Positions 31,436 through 45,324 of a DNA stretch of 64,000 nt are shown piece after piece. The stretch is from Thermosynechococcaceae cyanobacterium MS004 (GTDB taxonomy: Bacteria > Cyanobacteriota > Cyanobacteriia > Thermosynechococcales > Thermosynechococcaceae): the NCBI GenBank assembly GCA_022402525.1, contig JAKRSB010000089.1, positions 62,001-126,000 on the forward strand, given 5' to 3'. The stretch's first letter is position 1, and each line of letters begins with the position of its first letter. The position numbers were made by a program, and so were the translations under genes. The notes under the pieces were generated by a model. It did no database searches, was not told where the DNA came from, and was given only the letters and a program-made list of their open reading frames with translations.

Positions 31436-31454
31436 AATGAGAATAATAATCATT
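31436..31454. promoter_or_regulatory. Zur/Fur-type box 1
   Basis: AATGAGAA-TAA-TAATCATT, an imperfect inverted repeat matching the AATGATAA-N3-TTATCATT form found at 41228. It is upstream of the FAD enzyme gene (plus) and the small ORF (minus). Confidence 0.75.
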
Positions 31455-31653: not shown

Positions 31654-32934
31654 ATGACTGCCCCAGTTAGGGAGAATTCTTTTTTGAAACTGCAAACAGA
31701 GCTGCAAACAGAACTGCAAACAGATATTGCCATTATTGGCGCGGGGCCACAGGCGCTGACGATAACGACTCACCTGCTTCAAAAAGGTGGACGGCGATCG
31801 CCACAGCTTGTTGTCCTTGACCCAAGCGGCACCTGGATGCAGCGATGGCATCAGCAGTTTGCAGCACAGGACATTGCATATTTGCGATCGCCTGTGGCTC
31901 ACCATCCTGACCCGAATCCCTATGCGTTAAGGGCTTTTGCGGAATCGCGTCATCGAGAATTATTTCCACCTTATGATCGTCCTAGCCGTCAGCTCTTTCA
32001 AGATTTCTGTCACGCCTTGATTCAGCGGTGGAACCTACAAGATCGCGTGATGGCCGCTGAAGTTGTTCAAATTGAACCTATCAGGCAGCAACGGTATCGA
32101 TTTCGACTTTGGCTCAAGGATGGACGCGGACTTTTGGCTCGACGGGTGGTGCTGGCAGGGGGTGATGGCGCGCTCAATGTACCCGAATGGGCGAGATCGC
32201 TTCAGGAGACTCATCAGGGGGCTTACCCGACCGATCGGTTGAGCCATTCGGATCAGGTTGACTTAGGTCAGCTTCAGCTTCAGGGCGATCGCGTTTTAGT
32301 GATTGGCGGCGGCTTGACCAGTGGACATCTTGCCCTAGGTGCAATGCATCGGGGCGCAAACGTTAAGCTCATGGCGCGTCGTCAGTTCCAAGTCAAGCTA
32401 TTTGATGCCGATCCGGGCTGGGTTGGCCCCAAATACCTTAAAGGCTTTAATGCCGAAGCAAGCTGGCAGCGGCGGTGGCAGATGATTCAAGATGCTCGCA
32501 ATGGCGGCTCATTCACTCCCGATGTGATGCTAAAGCTCCGCCGTGCCCAGCGAGATAAATCCATTGAACTGATAGAGCAATGTCAAGTGGTGCAGGTACG
32601 CTGGTGTAGCGATTGCTGGCAAGTTGACTGCACGGATGGGGAGCATTTTGAGTGCGATCGCATTTGGTATGCGACAGGCCGCAAGTTAGATGCGGCACAA
32701 TGCCCTCTGCTGAAAGAAATTCAAGCGCAGTATCCCGCCAAACTGGTGCATGGCTTGCCAATTTTAGATTCTCATCTGCGCTGGCCGGGTTGTGAGCTAT
32801 TTGTAATGGGTGGATTAGCTGCCCTTCAGGTCGGCCCGGTGGCACGCAACCTGCGCGGTGCAACAATTGCTAGCGATCGCATTGTGGAAGCCTTGATGAA
32901 ACCGACTATCGCCTTAAGTAGAGCAGTCGCCTAG
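31654..32934 (+). CDS. FAD/NAD(P)-binding oxidoreductase (ornithine/lysine N-monooxygenase-like)
   Basis: A 426-residue flavoprotein. The FAD-binding motif IAIIGAGPQALT is near residue 26, the NAD(P) site VLVIGGGLTSGHLALGA near residue 215, and the ATG-R motif of N-hydroxylating monooxygenases appears as WYATGRKLD near 345; FVMGGLAALQVGPVARNLRGA closes the FAD site. The family includes SidA/IucD siderophore hydroxylases and uncharacterised relatives, so a metallophore or other N-oxygenation is possible but not shown. The N-terminus has a 12-bp tandem duplication (LQTE three times). It starts the zinc island, 200 bp after box 1, with the TAAATG start preceded by no strong ribosome site. Confidence 0.82.
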   Translation: MTAPVRENSFLKLQTELQTELQTDIAIIGAGPQALTITTHLLQKGGRRSPQLVVLDPSGTWMQRWHQQFAAQDIAYLRSPVAHHPDPNPYALRAFAESRHRELFPPYDRPSRQLFQDFCHALIQRWNLQDRVMAAEVVQIEPIRQQRYRFRLWLKDGRGLLARRVVLAGGDGALNVPEWARSLQETHQGAYPTDRLSHSDQVDLGQLQLQGDRVLVIGGGLTSGHLALGAMHRGANVKLMARRQFQVKLFDADPGWVGPKYLKGFNAEASWQRRWQMIQDARNGGSFTPDVMLKLRRAQRDKSIELIEQCQVVQVRWCSDCWQVDCTDGEHFECDRIWYATGRKLDAAQCPLLKEIQAQYPAKLVHGLPILDSHLRWPGCELFVMGGLAALQVGPVARNLRGATIASDRIVEALMKPTIALSRAVA

Positions 32935-34124: not shown

Positions 34125-34143
34125 TTTGATAACGATTATCGTT
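34125..34143. promoter_or_regulatory. Zur/Fur-type box 2
   Basis: TTTGATAA-CGA-TTATCGTT, 25 bp before the start of the COG0523 GTPase at 34169. The core TGATAACGATTATC matches box 3 exactly. Confidence 0.85.
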
Positions 34144-34168
34144 GTATAAGCTAAAGAGGATTCAGCCG

Positions 34169-35140
34169 ATGGTTGCCAACGCGATCGCCCATGCAGTACC
34201 TGTAACCGTTCTGACGGGCTACTTGGGAGCAGGTAAAACGACCTTGCTCAACCGTATTTTGACCCATGAGCATGGCAAAAAAGTGGCCGTCATTGTGAAT
34301 GAGTTTGGCGAAGTGGGTATTGATAATCAGCTTGTGATCAATGCCGATGAAGAAATCTTTGAGATGAATAACGGCTGTATCTGCTGCACGGTACGCGGTG
34401 ACCTGATTCGGATTATCAGCAACCTGATGCGGCGGCGGGATAAGTTTGACCATTTGGTCATTGAAACCACGGGGTTGGCTGACCCCGCTCCGGTGATTCA
34501 AACCTTTTTTATGGATGAAGAGGTGCAGTCCCAGAGCTTTCTAGATGCCGTAGTAACGGTGGTAGATGCCAAGCACATCTGGCAGCACTGGGAGGCAGAA
34601 GAAGCCCAGGAGCAGATTGCCTTTGCAGATGTCATTCTGCTCAATAAGGTTGATTTAGTCGATGCAGACACGCTAGATGAGCTGGAACGACGCATCCGCA
34701 GCATGAATGCCATGACCAAAATTTACCGCACCCGCAATGCAGAGATTGAGATGGACGATCTGCTAGGCGTTAAAGCCTTTGATCTTAATCGGGCATTAGA
34801 AATTGATCCCGAATTCTTAGGCGAAGATGCCCACGAGCATGATGAGACTGTCGGTTCTGTTGCAATTGTTGAATCCGGTGCTATTAGCGAGAAGCGCCTC
34901 AATGATTGGTTGGGAACACTGCTGCGGACGAAAGGGGCAGATATCTTTCGGATGAAAGGCATCTTAAATGTGAAGGGCGACGACAATCGCTTTGTGTTTC
35001 AAGGGGTGCATATGCTGTTTGATGGAAACCGCGATCGCCCTTGGCGTGCCAATGAAACTCGCAAGAACGAACTGGTCTTTATTGGTCGCAATCTCAACGA
35101 AACTGAGCTTAAAGAGGCATTTCGCAAGTGTTTGGTCTAA
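34169..35140 (+). CDS. COG0523 metallochaperone GTPase (CobW/ZagA-like)
   Basis: A 323-residue G3E GTPase. Walker A GYLGAGKT, the metal-binding CICCTV (C-x-C-C), ETTGLADPAP (switch II), and NKVDLVD (base recognition) are all intact; a CobW C-terminal domain follows (residues about 235-320: FRMKGILNVKGDDNRFVFQGVH). A short His/Glu stretch (DAHEHDE, near 220) lies in the linker. Family knowledge: COG0523 proteins hand metal to client enzymes, and zinc-linked members are induced by Zur under zinc shortage. The Zur-type box just upstream supports zinc. Start ATG 34169 has AAAGAGGA upstream; the TTG at 34142 lies inside the box. Confidence 0.93.
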   Translation: MVANAIAHAVPVTVLTGYLGAGKTTLLNRILTHEHGKKVAVIVNEFGEVGIDNQLVINADEEIFEMNNGCICCTVRGDLIRIISNLMRRRDKFDHLVIETTGLADPAPVIQTFFMDEEVQSQSFLDAVVTVVDAKHIWQHWEAEEAQEQIAFADVILLNKVDLVDADTLDELERRIRSMNAMTKIYRTRNAEIEMDDLLGVKAFDLNRALEIDPEFLGEDAHEHDETVGSVAIVESGAISEKRLNDWLGTLLRTKGADIFRMKGILNVKGDDNRFVFQGVHMLFDGNRDRPWRANETRKNELVFIGRNLNETELKEAFRKCLV

Positions 35141-36225
35141 AGCCTTCCGGTCGTCAGTCTTGGAAACAAACTTGGCGACATCAGCTTTCTGAATATGTGA
35201 CCCAAGTGGCCTGGTCGCCCGATGGCACCTTGTTAGCCGCCTGCTCTGCTGCGGGGGAAATTATCCTTCAGTCGTTTAGAAACCATACCCCTGGAGAATT
35301 GGTTGCTCTGGACGATGCGCCTGAGTCGATTAACCAGTTGGCGTTTTCTGCTGACGGTCAGTTTTTGGCTGCTGGAGACCAAGCGGGACAGGTGCGGATC
35401 TGGTCTAACCAAGGACACACCTTTACCCCGCTCATGACCCACAATCGAAAAGGCTACTGGGTTGAGCACCTGTGCTGGCATCCGACAGCGCCTCTGGTGG
35501 CGTTCAATGTGGGACATACGACTGAAGTCCTGAATGTCGCCACTCAATCTGTCGTTGCGAAGTTGGATTTTGAAAACTCTTCGGTGCTTTGCCTGACCTG
35601 GCATCCGACCAACGGGCAGCTAATCGTCGGCGGCTATCAGGGACTCAAAGTCTGGAATAGCCACAACTGGAATGAAGAGCCGTTGATTGGGGAGCTAGAT
35701 TCTGCAAGCTTGGAGATCGCCTGGTCCCCCGATGGGCGCTACCTCGCCTCAGGCAATCTGGATCGCACCATTACGGTTTTAGAGTGGTTGGGCCTCACAC
35801 CTGAATCAGTCCCTTGGGTGATGCGAGGGTTTCCAGGCAAAATTCGCCATCTTGCCTGGTCAAATGACCCTAGCCGTCCCAGTTCAATTCTCGCCTCAGC
35901 CAGCATTGAAGGCGTTGTCATTTGGGGACGTGACCCAGACCCAGCCATTGGATGGGAGGGACGGGTATTAGAGGGGCATACCCAAGCCGTAGAGGCGATC
36001 GCCTTTCAGCCCCAGACCCAACATCTCGCTTCAGCAAGTGCAGATGGATTCGTGAATATTTGGCAGAATGCTGAGCGCCTCACTCAATCACTGACGGGTG
36101 CGAATCAAGGGTTTTCCTGTCTCTGTTGGCACCCTCAAGGTCAATTTTTAGCCGCAGGTGGAAGTCAAGGGGGATTATTCATTTGGGCCCAATCTCAAGC
36201 AGGCAAAGGCTTCAGCAACGGTTAA
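35128..36225 (+). CDS. WD40-repeat protein coupled to a COG0523 gene
   Basis: A 365-residue beta-propeller. Blades are visible as repeated W-S/H-P-x-G-x-x-L/V-A and -V-x-x-W ends: VAWSPDGTLLAAC, LAFSADGQFLAAGDQAGQVRIW, LCWHPTAPLVAF, LTWHPTNGQLIVGGYQGLKVW, IAWSPDGRYLASG, IAFQPQTQHLASASADGFVNIW and LCWHPQGQFLAAGGSQGGLFIW, so seven. It overlaps the GTPase gene by 13 bp (GTG start 35128) and must be co-translated, so it is inside the same Zur-controlled unit. A scaffold for the metallochaperone or its client is a reasonable inference. No enzymatic motif is seen. Confidence 0.9.
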   Translation: MFGLKPSGRQSWKQTWRHQLSEYVTQVAWSPDGTLLAACSAAGEIILQSFRNHTPGELVALDDAPESINQLAFSADGQFLAAGDQAGQVRIWSNQGHTFTPLMTHNRKGYWVEHLCWHPTAPLVAFNVGHTTEVLNVATQSVVAKLDFENSSVLCLTWHPTNGQLIVGGYQGLKVWNSHNWNEEPLIGELDSASLEIAWSPDGRYLASGNLDRTITVLEWLGLTPESVPWVMRGFPGKIRHLAWSNDPSRPSSILASASIEGVVIWGRDPDPAIGWEGRVLEGHTQAVEAIAFQPQTQHLASASADGFVNIWQNAERLTQSLTGANQGFSCLCWHPQGQFLAAGGSQGGLFIWAQSQAGKGFSNG

Positions 36226-36273: not shown

Positions 36274-36663
36274 CTAATCAGATTCATCTAAATGTTCTGA
36301 TGCATCACGATAGAGATTGAGAATGTGGCTATCTTTGAGGCTATAGAAAACATTTCGCCCCTGCTTGCTGTAGCGGACTAGGCGCATGGTTCGCAAAATG
36401 CGTAGCTGGTGAGAGACCGCCGATTCCGTCATTTCCACAACCTCTGCCAAGTCTCGTACCCGCATCTCCTGGACAGCCAAGGCAGACAAAATTCGCCAGC
36501 GATTTGGGTCGCCCAAAACCCCAAAAAACTCCGCCATCCGCTGCGCTTTGTCAACCGTTATGATGCGCTGCTTGAGGTCTTTTCCGTCCTGCACTGCTAT
36601 CGCCTCAGATACCCCCTCGTCCGTCAATGCGATCGCCCTGTGGACGTGATGATGATCGGGCAT
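36274..36663 (-). CDS. smtB: ArsR/SmtB-family zinc-responsive repressor
   Basis: A 129-residue winged-helix repressor. Recognition helix TESAVSHQLRILRTMRLV and wing RYSKQGRNVFYSL match SmtB. The alpha5 zinc site is complete: DSHILNLYRDASEHLDE gives D-x-H-x10-H-x2-E, the same spacing as D104/H106/H117/E120 of Synechococcus SmtB. The alpha3N cysteine site is missing: where SmtB has CVC, this has RVR (QEMRVRDLAE). The N-terminus has HHH. It is divergent from smtA with palindromic operators between them, so release by zinc is expected. Metals that need the alpha3N thiolates (Cd, Pb) should be sensed poorly. Confidence 0.92.
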   Translation of the reverse strand: MPDHHHVHRAIALTDEGVSEAIAVQDGKDLKQRIITVDKAQRMAEFFGVLGDPNRWRILSALAVQEMRVRDLAEVVEMTESAVSHQLRILRTMRLVRYSKQGRNVFYSLKDSHILNLYRDASEHLDESD

Positions 36664-37716: not shown

Positions 37717-38076
37717 TTAAACGACAAGTTGCTGAAGTAGGAGTGGGGCTTCACGGAAGAAACAACTTCTGGCCCCCGTATGACAGGCAACATTGCCCAC
37801 CTGCTCAATTTTTAAAAGCAGTGCATCTGCGTCACAGTCATAGGAGAGAGACTTGACCTTCTGAAGGTGCCCAGAAGTGGCCCCTTTATGCCAGAGTTCG
37901 GAGCGGGAACGGCTCCAGTAGTGAACTTCACCAGTTTTGACGGTCTGTTGGATAGAGTCCCGATTCATCCAGGCCATCATGAGTACGGTGCCATCTTGGT
38001 GATCTTGGGCGATCGCCGGAATCAGCCCCTGCTCATTAAATTTCAGCGTATCCAGCCAAAGTATTTCTTGATTCAT
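37717..38076 (-). CDS. hisI: Phosphoribosyl-AMP cyclohydrolase (stand-alone HisI)
   Basis: A 119-residue enzyme for the third step of histidine biosynthesis (PR-AMP ring opening). It is HisI only; no HisE pyrophosphohydrolase domain follows. Mg site DCDAD (near residue 80) and zinc ligands Cys in DCDAD, ACHTG and RSCFF are all kept, so it should still need zinc. It overlaps the COG0523 gene upstream by ATGA. Family knowledge: stand-alone HisI next to COG0523 is a recurring Zur-regulon pattern, thought to be a low-zinc copy served by the chaperone. Whether another HisIE exists elsewhere cannot be told. Confidence 0.95.
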
Positions 38077-39041
38077 GATGCTGTACCGAGGCAGTTGGTT
38101 AAAAGCTGCTGGAGATTGAGCGGATTCAGATTACGGCCAATCCAAACCAGTTGCGTTTTGGGTGGGGTATGCCATTCGTCGCTATCAAGACTGATACGCT
38201 TGCCGCTGAGCTGAAACAGATGGCGGTCGGGGCTATCCTCAATACGTAAAATCCCTTTACCGCGAAAGACTTCTTGGGGGAGCTGGTAGTCTAAAAACTG
38301 CTGGAATTTCCGCAGGCTGACGGGGCGATCGCTCTCAAAAGAAACCGCCATATAGCCCTCATTTAAGGTTTGGGGAATCGTTTTCTGCTGATCCGATGCG
38401 GGCGCTGTACAGAAATCTGAATCATGCAGCTTAATATCTAAAATCAGCGGTAGCGGCACCTGACCGTAGCTCATTCTCACAATTCTAGGATTCGGCTTGA
38501 TGGTGTGGAGATACTGCTCTAGGGCTTCAAGGGTGGTTTCCGTTACCAGATCGGTCTTATTGAGCAGAATCATATCGCTGTAGGCAATCTGCCGATAGGC
38601 AATTTCGCTGCCGAAATGCTCTGGCGTAAAAGCTTCTGCATCTACCACAGTCAAAATGGCGTCAACACGGGTAAAGTTCCAAAGCTCAGTCGCCAGAAAG
38701 GTGGTGGCGATCGGAAGGGGGTCAGCAATGCCCGTGGTTTCCACAATGAGGGAGTCAATGCGATCGCGGTGGGCCAAAATGCGAAAGACTGCCTCGCTCA
38801 GATTGTTGTTAATGGTGCAGCAGATACAGCCATTGGTTAGCTCAATGACGTCTTCATCGACCGCAATCAGAAGCTGACTGTCAATATTGATATCCCCAAA
38901 CTCATTGACCAACACCGCAACGCGCCCATGGGGGAACTGTTTGAGAATTTCATTGAGGAGCGTCGTTTTACCGCTGCCTAAAAAGCCCGTAATGAGGGTA
39001 ACGGGCAGTTTAGCTTCGGGCATCAGAGGGCGCTCAAACAT
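38073..39041 (-). CDS. COG0523 metallochaperone GTPase
   Basis: A 322-residue G3E GTPase with [24 protein letters not shown] and NKTDLV all intact and a CobW C-terminal domain ([24 protein letters not shown]). It lacks the His-rich insert of its paralogue at 39750 but is otherwise very close to it (for example [14 protein letters not shown] in both), so the two arose by duplication. It starts with TAATG overlapping the folE stop and ends ATGA overlapping hisI, so folE, this GTPase and hisI are translated as one unit. The probable clients are those two enzymes. Confidence 0.94.
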
Positions 39042-39691
39042 TAGCGCAGTTGAGAAGAACGCTGAATCAGACTCATAAATTCTTGACGGGTACGAGCATC
39101 ATCCGCAAAGATCCCGCGCATGGCGCTCGTTGCTGTCCAAGATCCGGGCTTTTGCACCCCGCGCATCACCATACACATGTGGGTAGCCTCCACCACCACA
39201 GCTACTCCCTGAGGCTGAAGCAAGCCTTGAAGAGCATCAGCAATTTGGGCAGTCAAGCGCTCCTGTACCTGTAAGCGTCGTCCATACATTTCACAAATAC
39301 GGGCAATTTTAGAGAGGCCAATTACCTTGCCGTTAGGGATGTAGGCCACATGGGCACGACCCAAAATCGGTAGGATATGGTGCTCACAGGAGCTAAACAA
39401 GTCAATATCGCGCACTAGAACCATTTCATCGGTATTTTCGGTAAAGACGGCACCGTTGAGAAGTTCATCGAGGGACTGCTGATAGCCAGAGGTCAAAAAC
39501 TTGAGCGCTTTGACCACCCGTTTTGGGGTATCCAGCAGCCCTTCTCGATCTGGATCTTCCCCCAGGCCAATCAGAAGCGTACGGACAGCCTGCCGCATAT
39601 CTTCTTCGGTGACAGGAGGATGGGAGGGAGACTTTAGCGCCAGCTCAAGGCTTTCAACGGGAGACAGATCGGAAGAATTAGAGGGGGTCAT
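39041..39691 (-). CDS. folE: GTP cyclohydrolase I (FolE type IA)
   Basis: A 216-residue enzyme making dihydroneopterin triphosphate from GTP for folate and pterin synthesis. The zinc ligands are present: Cys in SSCEHH, His of the same motif, and Cys in HMCMVMRG. The family stretch [22 protein letters not shown] and [10 protein letters not shown] are normal. The zinc-independent IB type (FolE2) would lack these, so this copy still needs zinc. Its location between two COG0523 GTPases under a Zur-type box suggests it is a copy supplied by a chaperone. Start is ATG 39691. Confidence 0.96.
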
Positions 39692-39749: not shown

Positions 39750-40880
39750 TCAAGAAGACAGAACGGCCTTAGCGCCAGATAGGGCAGGTTCTAGGCAGTT
39801 ATTTAAGTCTGCTTTTAGCTGCTCAGGATTCAAATTGCGCCCAATCAGCACAAGCTGATTGGTGGGGGGCACTTTCCATTCATCGGTTGCCATGTCATAG
39901 CGCTTGCCGCTGAGCTGAAAGATATAGCGCAACTGGCTTTCCCTAAACCACAGCAGACCCTTGGCGCGAAATACATCATCGGGCAGGTGGAAATCTAGAA
40001 AATTCTGGAACCCCGTCAGAGAAAACGGGCGATCGCTCTGAAAGGACACCGAAATAAACCCATCATTGTCCAAGTGCGCCGAGTGGTGATGATGATGCTC
40101 ATGATCGTGGTGATGCCCATCGTGATGCCGATCGTGATGATGTTCAGCGTGGTGATGCCCATCGTGATGGTGTTCGTCGTGATGATGAGCCTGATCTTGT
40201 TCCGTTTGGCAAATTTCTTCTTCGACTAAATCGGCATAAGCGGTGGGGTTGTTGTAACCCACATCTAGGATCAACGGTAGCGATACTTTGCCATATTCAG
40301 AGCGCAAAATTCGCGCCCCTGGTTTGACTTCACGGATTTCCGCTTCTAGCGCAATCACCCTTGCTTCCGGCACAAGATCGGTTTTATTCAGCACGATGAT
40401 GTCGCCGTAGATAATTTGCTTGGCGGCAGCTTCGCTATCAAAATGCTCTGGGGTAAAGGTTTCAGAATCTACCAGCGTCAAAATCGAGTCAACGCGGGTT
40501 AAGTCTCGTAAATCCGTCCCTAAAAAGGTCAGCACAATCGGGAGAGGGTCTGCGATACCCGTGGTTTCAATCACCATGTAGTCCACCTTGTCTGGACGCT
40601 CTAGGATGTTGTAGACAGCTTCCACCAAGTTGTCATTGATGGTGCAGCAGATACAGCCGTTGCTCAGCTCTACCATGCCCTCATCAATCGACACTAAGAG
40701 CTGACTGTCGATGTTGATATCGCCAAACTCGTTGACTAAGACCGCAATTTTGAGGTCAGACTGATTTTCTAAAATGTGATTCAACAGCGTGGTTTTACCG
40801 CTGCCGAGAAACCCCGTGAGAATGGTAACGGGCATCCCCCGCTTGGGAAGATCGAGAGGCGGCGTGGAAGGTGAAAACAT
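39750..40880 (-). CDS. COG0523 metallochaperone GTPase with large His tract
   Basis: A 376-residue G3E GTPase: [30 protein letters not shown] and the CobW C-terminal domain (FRAKGLLWFRESQLRYIFQL). Between the domains (about residues 225-270) lies a His/Asp/Glu tract with 24 His in about 40 residues, a typical zinc-binding or storage insert. It is paralogous to the gene at 38073. ATG 40880 is used with GGAG about ten bases upstream; the longer GTG start at 40922 adds a short hydrophobic piece that is not conserved. It follows the DUF1830 gene in the same operon. Confidence 0.94.
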   Translation of the reverse strand: MFSPSTPPLDLPKRGMPVTILTGFLGSGKTTLLNHILENQSDLKIAVLVNEFGDINIDSQLLVSIDEGMVELSNGCICCTINDNLVEAVYNILERPDKVDYMVIETTGIADPLPIVLTFLGTDLRDLTRVDSILTLVDSETFTPEHFDSEAAAKQIIYGDIIVLNKTDLVPEARVIALEAEIREVKPGARILRSEYGKVSLPLILDVGYNNPTAYADLVEEEICQTEQDQAHHHDEHHHDGHHHAEHHHDRHHDGHHHDHEHHHHHSAHLDNDGFISVSFQSDRPFSLTGFQNFLDFHLPDDVFRAKGLLWFRESQLRYIFQLSGKRYDMATDEWKVPPTNQLVLIGRNLNPEQLKADLNNCLEPALSGAKAVLSS

Positions 40881-40925
40881 CACAATGGCTCCTAAGACAA
40901 AACTGAGAGGAAAGGACGACACACC

Positions 40926-41162
40926 CTAGGCGGGAGCATGAACCTCTGACGGCACAGCAAGGCTGGCGCAAGGAATGCGATCTGACAAGATGGCGCTAAC
41001 CACGACTCCGGTATGAATTTCTAGGTGTGCCTCTGGCGTTGCCTCAAACAGAATGCAGACGTTGGGGAAAACGACCCGCTCAAAATATCCCCTGGGTAAA
41101 TCGACAATTCGCACTATCTGGACGCTGTGGGTGGTGTTGGTATAGCGGCAAAGCAAATCCAT
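40926..41162 (-). CDS. DUF1830 protein
   Basis: A 78-residue protein of the cyanobacteria-specific DUF1830 family: MDLLCRYTNTTHSVQIVRI, FERVVFP, LFEATPEAHLEIHTG and ILSDRIPCASL. Function is unknown. It is the first gene after Zur-type box 3 and probably the leader gene of the operon DUF1830 - COG0523(His) - folE - COG0523 - hisI. ATG 41162 is used; the frame extends seven codons further to a TTG that has no support. The two Cys (one near each end) may be metal-related, but this is only a guess. Confidence 0.88.
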   Translation of the reverse strand: MDLLCRYTNTTHSVQIVRIVDLPRGYFERVVFPNVCILFEATPEAHLEIHTGVVVSAILSDRIPCASLAVPSEVHAPA

Positions 41163-41227
41163 TGGCGATCCGTGATGCGTCAAGATTCAAGGAGTGGCTT
41201 CCCCAAGATGACTCAATTCTAACAAAC

Positions 41228-41246
41228 AATGATAACGATTATCATT
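41228..41246. promoter_or_regulatory. Zur/Fur-type box 3 (best copy)
   Basis: AATGATAA-CGA-TTATCATT, a perfect 8-3-8 inverted repeat, 66 bp upstream of the DUF1830 start and just at the stop codon of the metallophosphatase-like gene at 41242. Confidence 0.92.
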
Positions 41247-42048
41247 CGTTTTTCTTCTGATTCATTTCAAGTCGCGGAGGTCGAGCACGTTGTTTTGCTG
41301 CGATTGTTTTGCTGCGATTTGGCAGTCGAAATCCTTTGAAATGTCCATACCGCACGGTCTGGAACTGGACGCGATTCGTCCCAGGGTCGTAGAGGGTATA
41401 GGTGGCTTCTCCTGCTGTCCGCCCCACGTTGCCCACGCCTACAATTTGACGAGCAGTGATCGTCACGGATTGGGTCTGGGCAGCGTGGTTCAGGGTTTGA
41501 ATTGTGGAGGCGATCGCACTTTCCTTAATCTCATACTGAAAGGCCAGCCCAGACCGTCCACAGAATAGGTTGTTTGCCCCAAACCGCAGCAGCCGATCTA
41601 GCAAAATCTGTACTGGAGTCTCTGGGGTCAGCGTATCTTCTACGCCCACTGAACTCCCGTGAACCAGCAGACAGTCGAGTTCATAGATGCCAAATTCTAG
41701 AGATCGCATCCACTCCACGGTTTGACGCGACACCGAATCCCAGAGGGTTTTCACCATCGGCATTCCATATTTTTCAATCAGCGAGGTTGGCTCACTGATG
41801 CGCCCCAGCCCATACAAAATTAAGCACTGCTCTTCCCACCAGCCCAGGCAAATTTGAGGTTCAAGCTCCCCCCGTCGCTGCTTTTGAATGCGCTGCACAA
41901 GCGCTTCGCTCTCAGGGTGAGGGCCAACCACATCTCCCAGCAGGTAAAGGGAGCTAACGGGGTGCCGCTGTCGTTTAATATCCGCTAAAACCGCTTCGTA
42001 GGCCGTAAGGTTGCCTTCGATGCCGCTTAAAATCGCCCAATATTCCAT
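41242..42048 (-). CDS. Degenerate metallophosphatase-fold protein
   Basis: A 268-residue protein of the calcineurin-like phosphoesterase fold (YfcE-like family) in which nearly every metal ligand has changed. The D-x-H motif is LSGIEGN (normal SDIHGN), GD is kept in YLLGDVVGPHP, the GNHD motif is LGWWEEQ, and the final GHTH motif is CGRSG; only LLVHGSS is kept. Catalysis by a two-metal mechanism is thus unlikely. It starts 3 bp after the stop of its better preserved paralogue at 42052, and ends in a basic tail (RSKTIAAKQRARPPR). A regulatory or scaffold role is inferred. Confidence 0.85.
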   Translation of the reverse strand: MEYWAILSGIEGNLTAYEAVLADIKRQRHPVSSLYLLGDVVGPHPESEALVQRIQKQRRGELEPQICLGWWEEQCLILYGLGRISEPTSLIEKYGMPMVKTLWDSVSRQTVEWMRSLEFGIYELDCLLVHGSSVGVEDTLTPETPVQILLDRLLRFGANNLFCGRSGLAFQYEIKESAIASTIQTLNHAAQTQSVTITARQIVGVGNVGRTAGEATYTLYDPGTNRVQFQTVRYGHFKGFRLPNRSKTIAAKQRARPPRLEMNQKKNE

Positions 42049-42051
42049 AAC

Positions 42052-42867
42052 TTACCGCTCACAGACATGGGTTGGATCTTCAGCACGTTCGGCATACTCC
42101 ATGCCTTGGGCTAACCGCCACGCAAAGATCGGGGGCAACCCTTTCTCGATGATGGCCTGACAGGTTTTTTGATAGTCGTAGGGCACTTCGCGGAGCGCCA
42201 CATCTTGAGTCTCACTGTCATAAAGTACATAGGTTGCATCGGTGCGTCCATGCCGGGGTTCGCCCACCGAGCCAGCATTGATCAGTCGCTTTAAGGGCGC
42301 TTCAAATCGCCCAGTTTGATCGGGGTCAGCGTTCGGCTGGCTAATCCGCACCTGAAACGTCCCCTCACTCAGAGCCCGAACGTAAGGGACATGGGTATGA
42401 CCGCAAAACATCACGTCTGCACCCGTGGAAAGCACTCGCTCTAGGGCCGTAAACGCATGGATATCCGGCAGTAAATACTCATGCTGGCTATGGGGGCTAC
42501 CGTGGACGAAGCACAGGTTGTCTTCCTGCACCACCATTGGCAGCGTTGCCAAAAACGATCGCGTCTCTGGATGAATTTCTTGATTCGTCCATTCGTGGGC
42601 AACTCGACCTCGTTTTTCTGCCAAGACCGAGGGGTAGCTGCACTCACAGGAGTTGAGTCCTTCCACAATGTCTTCGTCCCAGCAGCCCTGACAGGTCGGG
42701 ATATCCAGACTCCGAATCATTTCAACAACCTGGTTGGGGTAAGGGCCATAGCCGACTAAATCACCCAAGCAAAATATCTTGTCTGCTTTCTGAGCATCAA
42801 TATCTGAAAGCACCGCATTCAGGGCTTCGTAATTACCGTGAATGCAGGACATCACCGCAATTTTCAT
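42052..42867 (-). CDS. Metallophosphatase-fold protein with Cys-substituted metal sites
   Basis: A 271-residue calcineurin-like phosphoesterase. Most motifs are good: GDLVGYGP, LCFVHGSPHS and CGHTHVP. But the first Asp is Cys (MSCIHGN in place of SDIHGN) and the GNHD motif reads QGCWDEDI, so the bridging Asn and His are changed and another Cys is present. Several more Cys lie near (LNSCECSY). A site with Cys ligands would favour zinc or iron; this is inference. It is translationally coupled (ATGA overlap) with the P-loop gene upstream. Substrate unknown. Confidence 0.88.
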   Translation of the reverse strand: MKIAVMSCIHGNYEALNAVLSDIDAQKADKIFCLGDLVGYGPYPNQVVEMIRSLDIPTCQGCWDEDIVEGLNSCECSYPSVLAEKRGRVAHEWTNQEIHPETRSFLATLPMVVQEDNLCFVHGSPHSQHEYLLPDIHAFTALERVLSTGADVMFCGHTHVPYVRALSEGTFQVRISQPNADPDQTGRFEAPLKRLINAGSVGEPRHGRTDATYVLYDSETQDVALREVPYDYQKTCQAIIEKGLPPIFAWRLAQGMEYAERAEDPTHVCER

Positions 42868-43649
42868 GCTGCCTGTTCTCCTAACGATTCTTTGATTTGG
42901 GCTTGGTAGTAGGCGATCGCATCATCTTCTAGTCCACAGTCCCCCAAGGTTGAAGCAATACTGGCTTGGTCAAACCCTTCTCCCACTACCTCAAGGCCAC
43001 TAAAGCGCTCAGGTCGACCCTTCAACCAGCGCGGCACCTTTAGCTCAACGTATTGGGTATTGGGCAGCCCTGCCACGTAGTTGAAATAAAACGCTCGTCC
43101 ATCTACCAGGTCAAAAATTCCCTTAGCCCGATGGACTGCGCCGTAAGCACCTTGGGTGAGTTCGTGCCAAAAGGTATCGAGGCTGGCAGGGTCAAGAATT
43201 TGTCCGGTCAGGGGCGATCGCCAAATCTGAGTTGCCGAAAAGTCACGATAAACCTCTGCGGCTGGGACAACGTCATCGGCCCAATTCTTAAGATCAAGAT
43301 CCTCAGAACTGGAGGGCAGCACAGCCACTCGATGACACAACCCTGGATCAAACGGCAGCACTAGCGCCAATGGGTCAATATGAAACCCAATTTCTACATA
43401 GATTGCCGCACCTTCAGCCAGTCGCATCTCTACGACTGCGGCGATAGACTCACGCTGTGCTTCATCTAATACTTCAAGGGTTGGAGACTCCGTGGCGAGA
43501 TAGCTGGCATCCACAGGAATCTGCGCCCCCAAAGCCAAGTAAGCGCCAAGGGCTTGCGGAGATTGCTGGGAATGAAAATGGGTATAAATCCAGCTTGTTT
43601 TACCTGAACCTGATGGCCCAGCCACCAAGTTGATGGGTGCAGTTTTCAT
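42864..43649 (-). CDS. Divergent P-loop protein with CobW-like C-terminal domain
   Basis: A 261-residue protein. Walker A is GPSGSGKTS at residue 12, but the COG0523 hallmarks are absent: no C-x-C-C, no NKxD, and switch II is replaced by an IYVEIGFHIDPLALVL stretch. The second half (about 165-245) resembles the CobW C-terminal domain: YGAVHRAKGIFDLVDGRAFYFNYV and RFSGLEVVGEGFD. It is thus a shortened relative of the metallochaperones that probably cannot bind metal through the usual site. It is first in an operon with the two metallophosphatase-like genes, behind Zur-type box 4. Confidence 0.8.
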   Translation of the reverse strand: MKTAPINLVAGPSGSGKTSWIYTHFHSQQSPQALGAYLALGAQIPVDASYLATESPTLEVLDEAQRESIAAVVEMRLAEGAAIYVEIGFHIDPLALVLPFDPGLCHRVAVLPSSSEDLDLKNWADDVVPAAEVYRDFSATQIWRSPLTGQILDPASLDTFWHELTQGAYGAVHRAKGIFDLVDGRAFYFNYVAGLPNTQYVELKVPRWLKGRPERFSGLEVVGEGFDQASIASTLGDCGLEDDAIAYYQAQIKESLGEQAA

Positions 43650-43714: not shown

Positions 43715-43733
43715 AGCAATAATCATTCTCATT
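43715..43733. promoter_or_regulatory. Zur/Fur-type box 4
   Basis: AGCAATAA-TCA-TTCTCATT: the right half fits the consensus at seven of eight positions, the left half less well. It lies 65 bp upstream of the P-loop/metallophosphatase operon. Confidence 0.65.
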
Positions 43734-43783: not shown

Positions 43784-44758
43784 TCAGTGCTTTAGCAGCA
43801 ATGCGGCTTCTTTGGCAAAATAGGTCAAAATCAGGTCTGCCCCAGCTCGTTTCAGGCTAGTGAGCGTTTCCAGCATCACTGCTTTCTCATCAATCCAGCC
43901 CTTCTGGGCAGCGGCCTTGATCATGGCGTACTCCCCGCTCACGTTATAGGCGGCGATGGGTAAATGGGTTGCGGCTCGGATGCGATGGATGATATCCATA
44001 TAGGCCAAAGCAGGTTTGACCATCACAATATCCGCGCCTTCGGCAATATCTAGACCCACTTCCTTCAGGGCTTCAAGGGCATTGGCTGAGTCCATTTGAT
44101 AGGTCTTTTTGTCGCCAAATCGAGGGGCAGACTCTAGCGCATCCCGGAAAGGGCCATAGTAGGCTGAAGCATATTTGGCCGAATAAGCCAGAATACTCAC
44201 GTCCCAATAGCCTGCTTCATCTAGAGCTTTACGAATCGCTCCCACACGCCCATCCATCATGTCTGAGGGGGCAACCCAATCCGCGCCCGCGCCCGCTTGA
44301 ATCAGCGCCATTTTTGCCAAAACTTCAACCGTCGGGTCATTGAGAATTCGCCCCTCTTCATCGGCCAAGCCATCATGTCCCAGGCTGCTGTAGGGGTCTA
44401 GCGCCACATCGGTAATGACGACTAAATCTGGAAAGATTTGCTTAATTGCGCTGACCGTTCGTGGAATGAGTCCTTCAGGATTAAGACTTTCTGTGGCTTG
44501 GGCATCTTTTTGGGTGTCTGGAATGAGCGGGAAAAGTGCGATCGCCCCAATCCCTGCGACCTGGGCATCCTCAATTTCCTTGAGCAACTCATCTAGGGAG
44601 TAACGATAGCAACCCGGCATTGACGGAACTTCTACCTTGAGCTGCTCCCCCTCCATCACAAACAGGGGATAAATCAAATCATTAACCGTAAGCTGCGTTT
44701 CGCGCACCAGACGGCGAATCGATTCAGACGTCCGAAGACGGCGGGGGCGTAATGTCAT
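43784..44758 (-). CDS. hemB: Porphobilinogen synthase (zinc-free type)
   Basis: A 324-residue enzyme joining two 5-aminolevulinate molecules for haem and chlorophyll. The active-site lysines are in AYSAKYAS and MVKPAL. In zinc-type enzymes the metal motif has three Cys (D-x-C-x-C...C); here it reads ITDVALDPYSSLGHDG, with Ala/Asp in place of Cys, so this is the magnesium/zinc-independent type seen in plants and other phototrophs. That suits expression under zinc shortage. ATG 44758 is used (GAGAG nine bases upstream); TTG 44767 is less likely. It is divergent from zur and shares box 5. Confidence 0.97.
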   Translation of the reverse strand: MTLRPRRLRTSESIRRLVRETQLTVNDLIYPLFVMEGEQLKVEVPSMPGCYRYSLDELLKEIEDAQVAGIGAIALFPLIPDTQKDAQATESLNPEGLIPRTVSAIKQIFPDLVVITDVALDPYSSLGHDGLADEEGRILNDPTVEVLAKMALIQAGAGADWVAPSDMMDGRVGAIRKALDEAGYWDVSILAYSAKYASAYYGPFRDALESAPRFGDKKTYQMDSANALEALKEVGLDIAEGADIVMVKPALAYMDIIHRIRAATHLPIAAYNVSGEYAMIKAAAQKGWIDEKAVMLETLTSLKRAGADLILTYFAKEAALLLKH

Positions 44759-44832
44759 GGAACACAACTCTCAATCATGTTGGCAATCATGTTGACAAGG
44801 ATCAATTGGCAAGGATAAAACACATCGGATAA

Positions 44833-44851
44833 AATGATAATCATTATCTTA
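44833..44851. promoter_or_regulatory. Zur/Fur-type box 5, shared by hemB and zur
   Basis: AATGATAA-TCA-TTATCTTA; the inner GATAATCATTATC is a perfect palindrome. It lies 75 bp before hemB (minus) and 54 bp before zur (plus), so autoregulation of zur is predicted. Confidence 0.88.
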
Positions 44852-44904: not shown

Positions 44905-45324
44905 ATGTCTGCGTTAAGCCCTTTGACCCCTCATCAAGCCACCATTCTTAATCTGCTGAAAACCCTTGAGTCTGAAGTATCGGCTCAAACGCTTTATGCC
45001 GAGCTGCGGCAGCAAAAGTATCGCCTAGGGTTGGCGACAGTGTACCGAGCACTCAAGCATTTACAGCTTCAAGGGGCGGTGCAGGCCAGATCCTTACCGA
45101 ATGGAGAAGCGGTCTACAGCCTGGCGTCTAAAGAGAGGCACTATGTCACCTGCGTTAAATGTGGCACCTCGGTTCCTCTGGATCACTGTCCAGTTGACGA
45201 GCAGAGGCTGTCTCAGGCACTTGCGTCACAACAAGCGATCGCCCCTCAGTTCAAAATTTTCTATCACACCCTAGAACTCTTTGGCTTATGCTCACCTTGT
45301 TTGGAGCATAAATACCTGGCTTAG
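44905..45324 (+). CDS. zur: Fur-family zinc uptake regulator
   Basis: A 139-residue Fur-family protein. The DNA-binding winged helix is in residues 8-80 (LGLATVYRALKHLQLQGAVQ is the recognition region). The structural zinc site is complete: CVKCG at residue 87 and CSPC near the end; histidines for the sensory site are seen in RHYVTC and FYHTLELFG. Its length and the C-terminal C-x2-C fit Zur rather than PerR or Fur, and the surrounding zinc genes support this. It is expected to bind the AATGATAA-N3-TTATCATT boxes when zinc is ample and so shut off the island. Confidence 0.92.
   Translation: MSALSPLTPHQATILNLLKTLESEVSAQTLYAELRQQKYRLGLATVYRALKHLQLQGAVQARSLPNGEAVYSLASKERHYVTCVKCGTSVPLDHCPVDEQRLSQALASQQAIAPQFKIFYHTLELFGLCSPCLEHKYLA

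Follow-up and report, generated by a model that had tools for sequence, protein, structure and literature searches.

The locus described here raises the question of what two neighbouring proteins of the metallophosphoesterase fold, one with rewritten metal ligands and the other with almost none, may do among genes of the zinc-starvation response. It lies in a window (the whole stretch of DNA that was analysed, 64,000 nucleotides) from Thermosynechococcaceae cyanobacterium MS004. The original prediction, made from this DNA alone, described two tandem open reading frames with rewritten ligand motifs, and both were found on the minus strand with the coordinates and motifs claimed. The metallophosphatase-type fold ascribed to the pair was recovered in both proteins (P1 and P2), but a third partner (P3) had been overlooked, as were a C74-x-C76 pair and a likeness to Car1-type proteins. 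The three genes and the key codons are the following:

42864..43649, minus strand: P3, a degenerate COG0523-like protein of 261 aa (CobW_C domain, P-loop, profile comparison)
42052..42867, minus strand: P1, a metallophosphoesterase-fold protein of 271 aa (Pfam, homologue alignment, predicted fold)
42844..42846, minus strand: codon of P1 Cys8, at the motif I Asp position (homologue alignment)
42682..42684, minus strand: codon of P1 Cys62, at the motif III Asn position (homologue alignment)
42640..42648, minus strand: codons for C74-x-C76 of P1, the counterpart of CGC in arsenic-operon metallophosphoesterases (alignment; PMC12124457)
41242..42048, minus strand: P2, a P1 paralogue of 268 aa whose metal ligands are lost (homology to P1, predicted fold)

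The translated P1 carries the motifs SCIHGN, GDLVGYG, GCWDED, FVHGS and GHTH. The motif I Asp is replaced by Cys8, the Asn ligand by Cys62 and the catalytic His by Trp63; the ligands H10, D36, H122, H157 and H159 are kept and the C74-x-C76 pair comes in addition. The ordinary metallophosphoesterase set, DxH...GD...GNH(D/E)...H...GHxH, is thus absent from P1 (111/111 homologues), and it is absent from P2 as well. Nonetheless, both proteins have the fold of the calcineurin-like metallophosphoesterase superfamily, as indicated for P1 by its Pfam Metallophos_2 score (75.1 bits, cut-off 27) and its AlphaFold2 model (mean pLDDT 85.4) and for P2 by its model (mean pLDDT 89.8), these models being single chains without metal. 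The solved structures nearest to the two models (Z about 21-28) are the Ap4A hydrolase SapH (Spr1479, 3qfm), the archaeal PF1291/PH1004 (1nnw, 2gju) and 3rqz. The archaeal proteins have other degenerate motifs (ANIAGN, GNIVG, GKYD) and 3rqz has ordinary ones, and none of them shows the Cys residues. We know of no partner gene system for SapH, PF1291/PH1004 or 3rqz. In the P1 model, the order of strands and helices (DSSP) would place C74-x-C76 and C155 in or beside the active-site loops. Judging from its motifs, P1 is probably no ordinary phosphatase.

P2 is homologous to P1 (30% identity, E 8e-20; hhalign 99.9%) and its model matches 1nnw/2gju with Z about 24, whereas no Pfam family exceeds its cut-off in P2. 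Its motifs read SGIEGN, GDVVG, GWWEEQ, VHGS and GRSG, so that D39 and H130 are the only metal ligands left, in agreement with the nearly ligand-free partner that had been proposed. P2 is less conserved than P1; however, G69, W71, E72, Q74, H130 and R165 are invariant among 34 diverse members.

The rewiring of the P1 site, claimed from a single sequence, holds throughout the family. In an alignment of cyanobacterial homologues from 111 loci (a few genomes being present in both source sets), C8, H10, D36, C62, W63, D64, E65, D66, C74, C76, H122, C155, H157 and H159 are invariant in 111/111 proteins. The conservation of the Cys residues, which had been suggested as a check, therefore extends to C8 and C62 in every homologue, and homologues with ordinary ligands beside COG0523 genes, the finding that was to speak for private decay, number 0/111. 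In Prochlorococcus and marine Synechococcus, where the trio also occurs, identity is down to about 60% and the invariant positions are unchanged. The same motifs are found in a divergent lineage beyond the 111-locus set (about 60% identity). Mean column identity amounts to 74% for P1, 52% for P2 and 44% for P3.

The three genes are also kept together. In the window, the stop of P3 and the start of P1 overlap by 4 bp and P2 starts 3 bp after P1. The order P3-P1-P2 is seen in 95/111 loci, and several of the remaining ones lie near a contig edge or contain a broken gene. S. salina, related to Synechocystis sp. PCC 6803, is among the carriers of the trio (locus L046). Among 116 genomes of the class, P1 is present in 31, together with P3 in 31/31 and with P2 in 29/31, the P1 genes of the two exceptions being close to contig ends; this co-occurrence can partly reflect kinship. 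P3 occurs alone in three genomes of this sample and P2 alone in three, two of the latter with internal stops. Since most of the sampled genomes have no trio, it is not essential to the zinc economy in general.

P3 has a P-loop (GPSGSGKT) and a CobW_C domain (25.4 bits, cut-off 22), and the best solved relative of its profile is the COG0523 protein YjiA (E 4e-5). It resembles in this the COG0523/G3E metallochaperones (YjiA, ZNG1, ZagA, and P47K of nitrile hydratase operons), and, as is common for G3E proteins, its gene adjoins that of its likely client. However, P3 is shorter, and its consensus has neither the CxCC (GCICC) nor the NKxD (NKTD) stretch of the COG0523 profile, which makes a GTP-driven metal transfer doubtful. 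An hhalign comparison of the P3 profile with one built from the window's two COG0523 proteins and their relatives aligned only the C-terminal part (88%, E 3e-6). The usual task of G3E proteins is to mature a metalloenzyme whose gene lies nearby. In nitrile hydratase operons, the P47K-type G3E protein acts on a Cys-ligated subunit paired with a metal-free one, and the genetic layout of P3-P1-P2 recalls this arrangement by analogy only.

The trio lies among genes typical of zinc starvation:

44905..45324, plus strand: FUR-family regulator, probably Zur (domain match, neighbourhood)
43784..44767, minus strand: backup copy of hemB, zinc-free type, DVALDPYSSLGHDG (domain match, motif comparison with the second copy)
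39750..40922, minus strand: COG0523 protein with GCICC and a His-rich loop (domain match, profile)
39041..39691, minus strand: folE, second copy in the genome (domain match; other copy elsewhere)
38073..39041, minus strand: second COG0523 protein (domain match)
37717..38076, minus strand: hisI (domain match)

The other HemB of the MS004 genome, located elsewhere, is of the Cys type (DTCLCEYTPHGHCG), while that of the window matches the Zur-regulated HemB2 described as zinc-free (PMC2770081). Across loci, hemB, COG0523, folE, hisI and FUR-family genes are frequent neighbours of the trio, and on plasmids of Trichormus and Dolichospermum a zinc ABC transporter gene, thrS and metal transporters are also found nearby. 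These neighbours, together with Zur-box-like sites, are those of the zinc-sparing islands of Zur regulons (hemB2, folE2, hisI, thrS2, COG0523). Nevertheless, the usual backup proteins of such islands lose zinc ligands, whereas P1 gains Cys ligands.

Zur boxes were searched with the consensus TGATAATNATTATCA, single-base shuffles serving as controls. Three sites of the window concern the surroundings of the trio:

43717..43731, minus strand: putative Zur box for P3-P1-P2 with 3 mismatches, lying 67 bp upstream of the P3 start and reading TGAGAATGATTATTG on the coding strand
41230..41244, no strand given: Zur-box-like site with 1 mismatch, between P2 and the DUF1830-COG0523 genes (pattern search)
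44835..44849, no strand given: Zur-box-like site with 1 mismatch, in the gap that separates hemB from the divergent FUR-family gene (pattern search)

With 3 mismatches, the P3 box of the window is weak taken alone, and this candidate is backed mainly by the relatives. A box with at most 2 mismatches lies within 400 bp upstream of P3 in 54/107 loci against 0.25 in the shuffles, and within 4 kb in 53/71 loci against 1.7, these loci being related to one another so that the counts are not independent events. In many loci where P3 has no near box, folE, hisI or COG0523 lies directly upstream. A chance origin of the signal was rejected by these single-base shuffles, with the same reserve about related loci. 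In the MS004 genome as a whole, the pattern with 1 mismatch occurs in 12 places against 9 with a reversed control, so that a single box there is weak evidence by itself. The Zur control originally proposed for the operon is thus borne out as regards its context (COG0523 genes, zinc-free HemB, Zur-box-like sites), but the strong box at 41230-41244 is located downstream of P2 and the operon's own box has 3 mismatches. The strong box was rejected as driver of the trio and would serve DUF1830-COG0523.

Several further observations concern this region. The DUF1830 protein (40926-41183, minus strand) is encoded directly behind the best Zur-box-like site and upstream of COG0523, and it adjoins COG0523 in three other loci too (L068, L089 and L101). 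A third COG0523 gene (34142-35140, plus strand), with a Zur-box-like site directly upstream (34127-34141, 2 mismatches), is followed by a WD40-repeat-like ORF (35128-36225). An ORF resembling FAD/NAD(P)-binding oxidoreductases (31654-32934, plus strand) has a Zur-box-like site about 200 bp upstream (31438-31452); in PCC 7002, a FAD-dependent oxidoreductase beside the P3 stub described below is Zur-regulated (PMC4628125). Near the zinc island, an ArsR/SmtB-like regulator by sequence (36274-36663, minus strand) is perhaps a sensor of zinc excess.

Expression evidence comes from Picosynechococcus PCC 7002, a strain with a broken operon. Its plasmid pAQ7 (L126, 3122-4893) carries P3 up to residue 147 (this stub being 99% identical to PCC 7117), then an unrelated ORF, then the C-terminal half of P2. 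By position and description, we take these to be G0131, G0130 and G0129, respectively. Expression of G0131 rises in a zur mutant as well as with TPEN, while G0129 and G0130 are not up in the mutant (PMC4628125). If this gene mapping is right, the derepression of G0131 would point to a Zur-controlled promoter upstream of P3, the mutant data covering PCC 7002 only.

Outside cyanobacteria, the best plasmid matches of P1 (31-38% identity) are located in arsenic operons. In Pontibacter, Adhaeribacter, Paraclostridium and Hymenobacter, the gene of the relative is flanked by arsR and the ACR3 gene; in Rubrobacter, Mucilaginibacter and Pedobacter, it adjoins arsenic genes. A CGC pair with GNYD characterizes the protein in 8/9 arsenic loci examined; among these nine, the Flammeovirga protein, encoded next to arsA, has no CxC. 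The CxC of these proteins aligns with C74/C76 of P1 and, in Hymenobacter, occupies residues 74 and 76 without any gap. In the Mucilaginibacter and Pedobacter loci, a second, CxC-less protein adjoins the CGC protein. Tandem metallophosphoesterases of arsenic operons from Bacteroidota (L121, 1501-2993; L139, 727-2238), a CGC protein with GNYD followed by a CxC-less one with GNHD, parallel the P1-P2 pair.

One arsenic-operon protein is about 40% identical to Car1, which reduces As(V) in Rufibacter tibetensis, and contains the Cys74 and Cys76 that are essential in the latter (PMC12124457). P1 thus shares with Car1 and the arsenic-operon metallophosphoesterases (orf1, MrMe1) the fold family and the positions of C74-x-C76, tandem pairs being found in both settings. 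The catalytic His is replaced in both, by Tyr in the arsenic-operon proteins and by Trp in P1. However, the arsenic-operon proteins have Asp8/Asn62 and lie with arsR, ACR3 or other arsenic genes whereas P1 has Cys8/Cys62 and lies in a zinc-starvation island, the ligand comparison being one with the arsenic-operon homologues of Car1. The arsenic-operon CxC proteins all retain Asp8 and Asn62, and both ligand swaps occur only in the cyanobacterial set. No arsenic-operon context was seen for P1; its loci with flanks show hemB/folE/COG0523/hisI/zur.

In the best trees, P1 does not group with these proteins. In a tree built without the CxC columns, P1 and P2 group together against all others (97/95), although the branch of P2 is long and attraction is possible. 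When P2 too is left out, the best tree separates P1 from the arsenic-operon set, but a joint clade of the two is not rejected (AU p 0.107). On these trees, P1 was not accepted as an orthologue of Car1. The stretch from GHTH to GSVG is longer in P1 and P2 than in arsenic-operon and non-photosynthetic relatives, and both paralogues have Trp at the position of the catalytic His. Joined to their grouping, this suggests that the P1/P2 duplication postdates the loss of this His. Non-photosynthetic relatives within the phylum were rejected as a source of the changes: the eight examined keep the Asp and the Asn and have no CxC. Because the nearest relatives of P1 have normal ligands, its Cys swaps are taken to be derived.

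From the observed sequences, invariance, predicted fold, gene order, co-occurrence and Zur-box enrichment, we infer a mechanism in which the identity of the metal, a P1/P2/P3 complex, redox gating and metal transfer all figure. P3-P1-P2 would be under Zur control and translationally coupled, its three proteins forming a unit in the response of cyanobacteria to zinc starvation. According to the standard ligand assignment for the fold, the two-metal site of P1 would be rebuilt with Cys8/His10/Asp36/His159 as site 1 and Asp36/Cys62/His122/His157 as site 2. Both sites would have a full ligand set with a thiolate, and the proton donor for the leaving group is missing. Such a site seems better fitted to hold a soft metal tightly, most likely zinc, than to hydrolyse phosphate esters; P1 would do no ordinary phosphatase work. 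The C74-x-C76 pair beside the metal site could gate metal release or take part in another thiol reaction. The metal-less P2 would form a heterodimer with P1, and P3, a shrunken COG0523-type NTPase, would load or unload P1, so that the trio may hold scarce zinc or hand it to clients. That P3-P1-P2 is a Zur-induced unit that holds and passes metal under redox gating seems quite possible, and we propose it tentatively. The narrower version, a non-hydrolytic metallophosphoesterase fold that stores or relays zinc at a Cys-ligated, redox-gated two-metal site, in a heterodimer with a metal-less paralogue and with a dedicated shrunken COG0523 partner, is more doubtful. Against the metal-holding unit, a tight Cys zinc site could compete with the needs of the cell under scarcity.

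Other explanations share part of this evidence. P1 could be a thiol reductase of the Car1 type, in which Cys74 would attack an oxyanion or an oxidised substrate, Cys76 would resolve and thioredoxin would recycle, C8/C62 retuning the metal site and Zur control reflecting a substrate or stress linked to zinc shortage. The original Car1 study reportedly describes thioredoxin coupling and a two-step Cys mechanism. The ungapped alignment of C74-x-C76 with the same residue numbers, the requirement of the Car1 pair for As(V) reduction and the tandem pairs of arsenic operons all agree with such a role; it is an unlikely one, given that P1 is never in an arsenic operon among the loci examined, that it has lost the Asp and Asn ligands kept by the arsenic-operon proteins and that the tree does not group it with them. 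A working hydrolase with a mixed or substitute metal pair, acting on a nucleotide built up in zinc shortage (e.g., a dinucleotide or ZTP) with P2 as regulator and P3 as metal inserter, is improbable to a similar degree. It would fit the habit of G3E proteins to mature nearby-encoded enzymes, and SapH (Z about 26) is the closest solved enzyme of known activity to P1. Furthermore, the lariat debranching enzyme Dbr1, a working hydrolase, has an invariant Cys14 at the motif I Asp position, like Cys8 of P1, and requires it for activity (PMC4176325), so that P1 may still hydrolyse. However, neither the Asn nor the catalytic His is replaced in Dbr1, which thus shares only one of the two Cys swaps; P1, with Cys62 and an invariant W63, does not have the Dbr1 pattern.

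The conservation of P2 despite near-total ligand loss, the Trp common to both paralogues and the degenerate archaeal relatives (1nnw) would also be compatible with a non-catalytic scaffold or sensor pair, in which the metal or disulfide state of P1 alters binding to P3 or to COG0523 proteins. By analogy with inactive subunits of the phosphoesterase fold, such a pair is conceivable but decidedly unlikely: P1 is much better conserved than either P2 or P3, and this conservation, with a complete possible ligand set, suggests chemistry. As for a dying gene pair whose ligands drifted, the stripped P2 and the broken operon of PCC 7002 are what could be quoted for it, and it retains next to no probability; identical changes in all P1 homologues, with the kept gene order and Zur boxes, rule out private decay for P1. 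Taken with P3 and the Car1-type likeness, C74-x-C76 appears to point to a thiol-redox or metal-handling role rather than to the phosphatase with another metal first imagined.

Together, the three proteins probably handle metal as a machine of a so far undescribed type. As the original prediction had stated for the pair, neither a function of P3-P1-P2 nor a protein with both Cys swaps was found described in the searchable literature, many subscription papers, that on the Anabaena Zur regulon included, lying beyond its scope. A known fold family is met here in a new regulatory setting, and the protein with both Cys swaps is a new aspect. The genes of the trio annotated as "metallophosphoesterase" or "metallophosphatase" probably do not encode ordinary phosphatases. 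PCC 7002, a common laboratory strain, has no P1 on pAQ7, so that zinc studies in it would miss the trio. If P1 does bind zinc through Cys residues that replace catalytic acids, it would show a hydrolase fold becoming a metal-handling device, and it would link Car1-type arsenic reductases with COG0523 zinc chaperones, a link of which no earlier instance was found. From hot springs to the open ocean, cyanobacteria share out very little zinc, and the Zur-linked trio offers a direct handle on how they do so.
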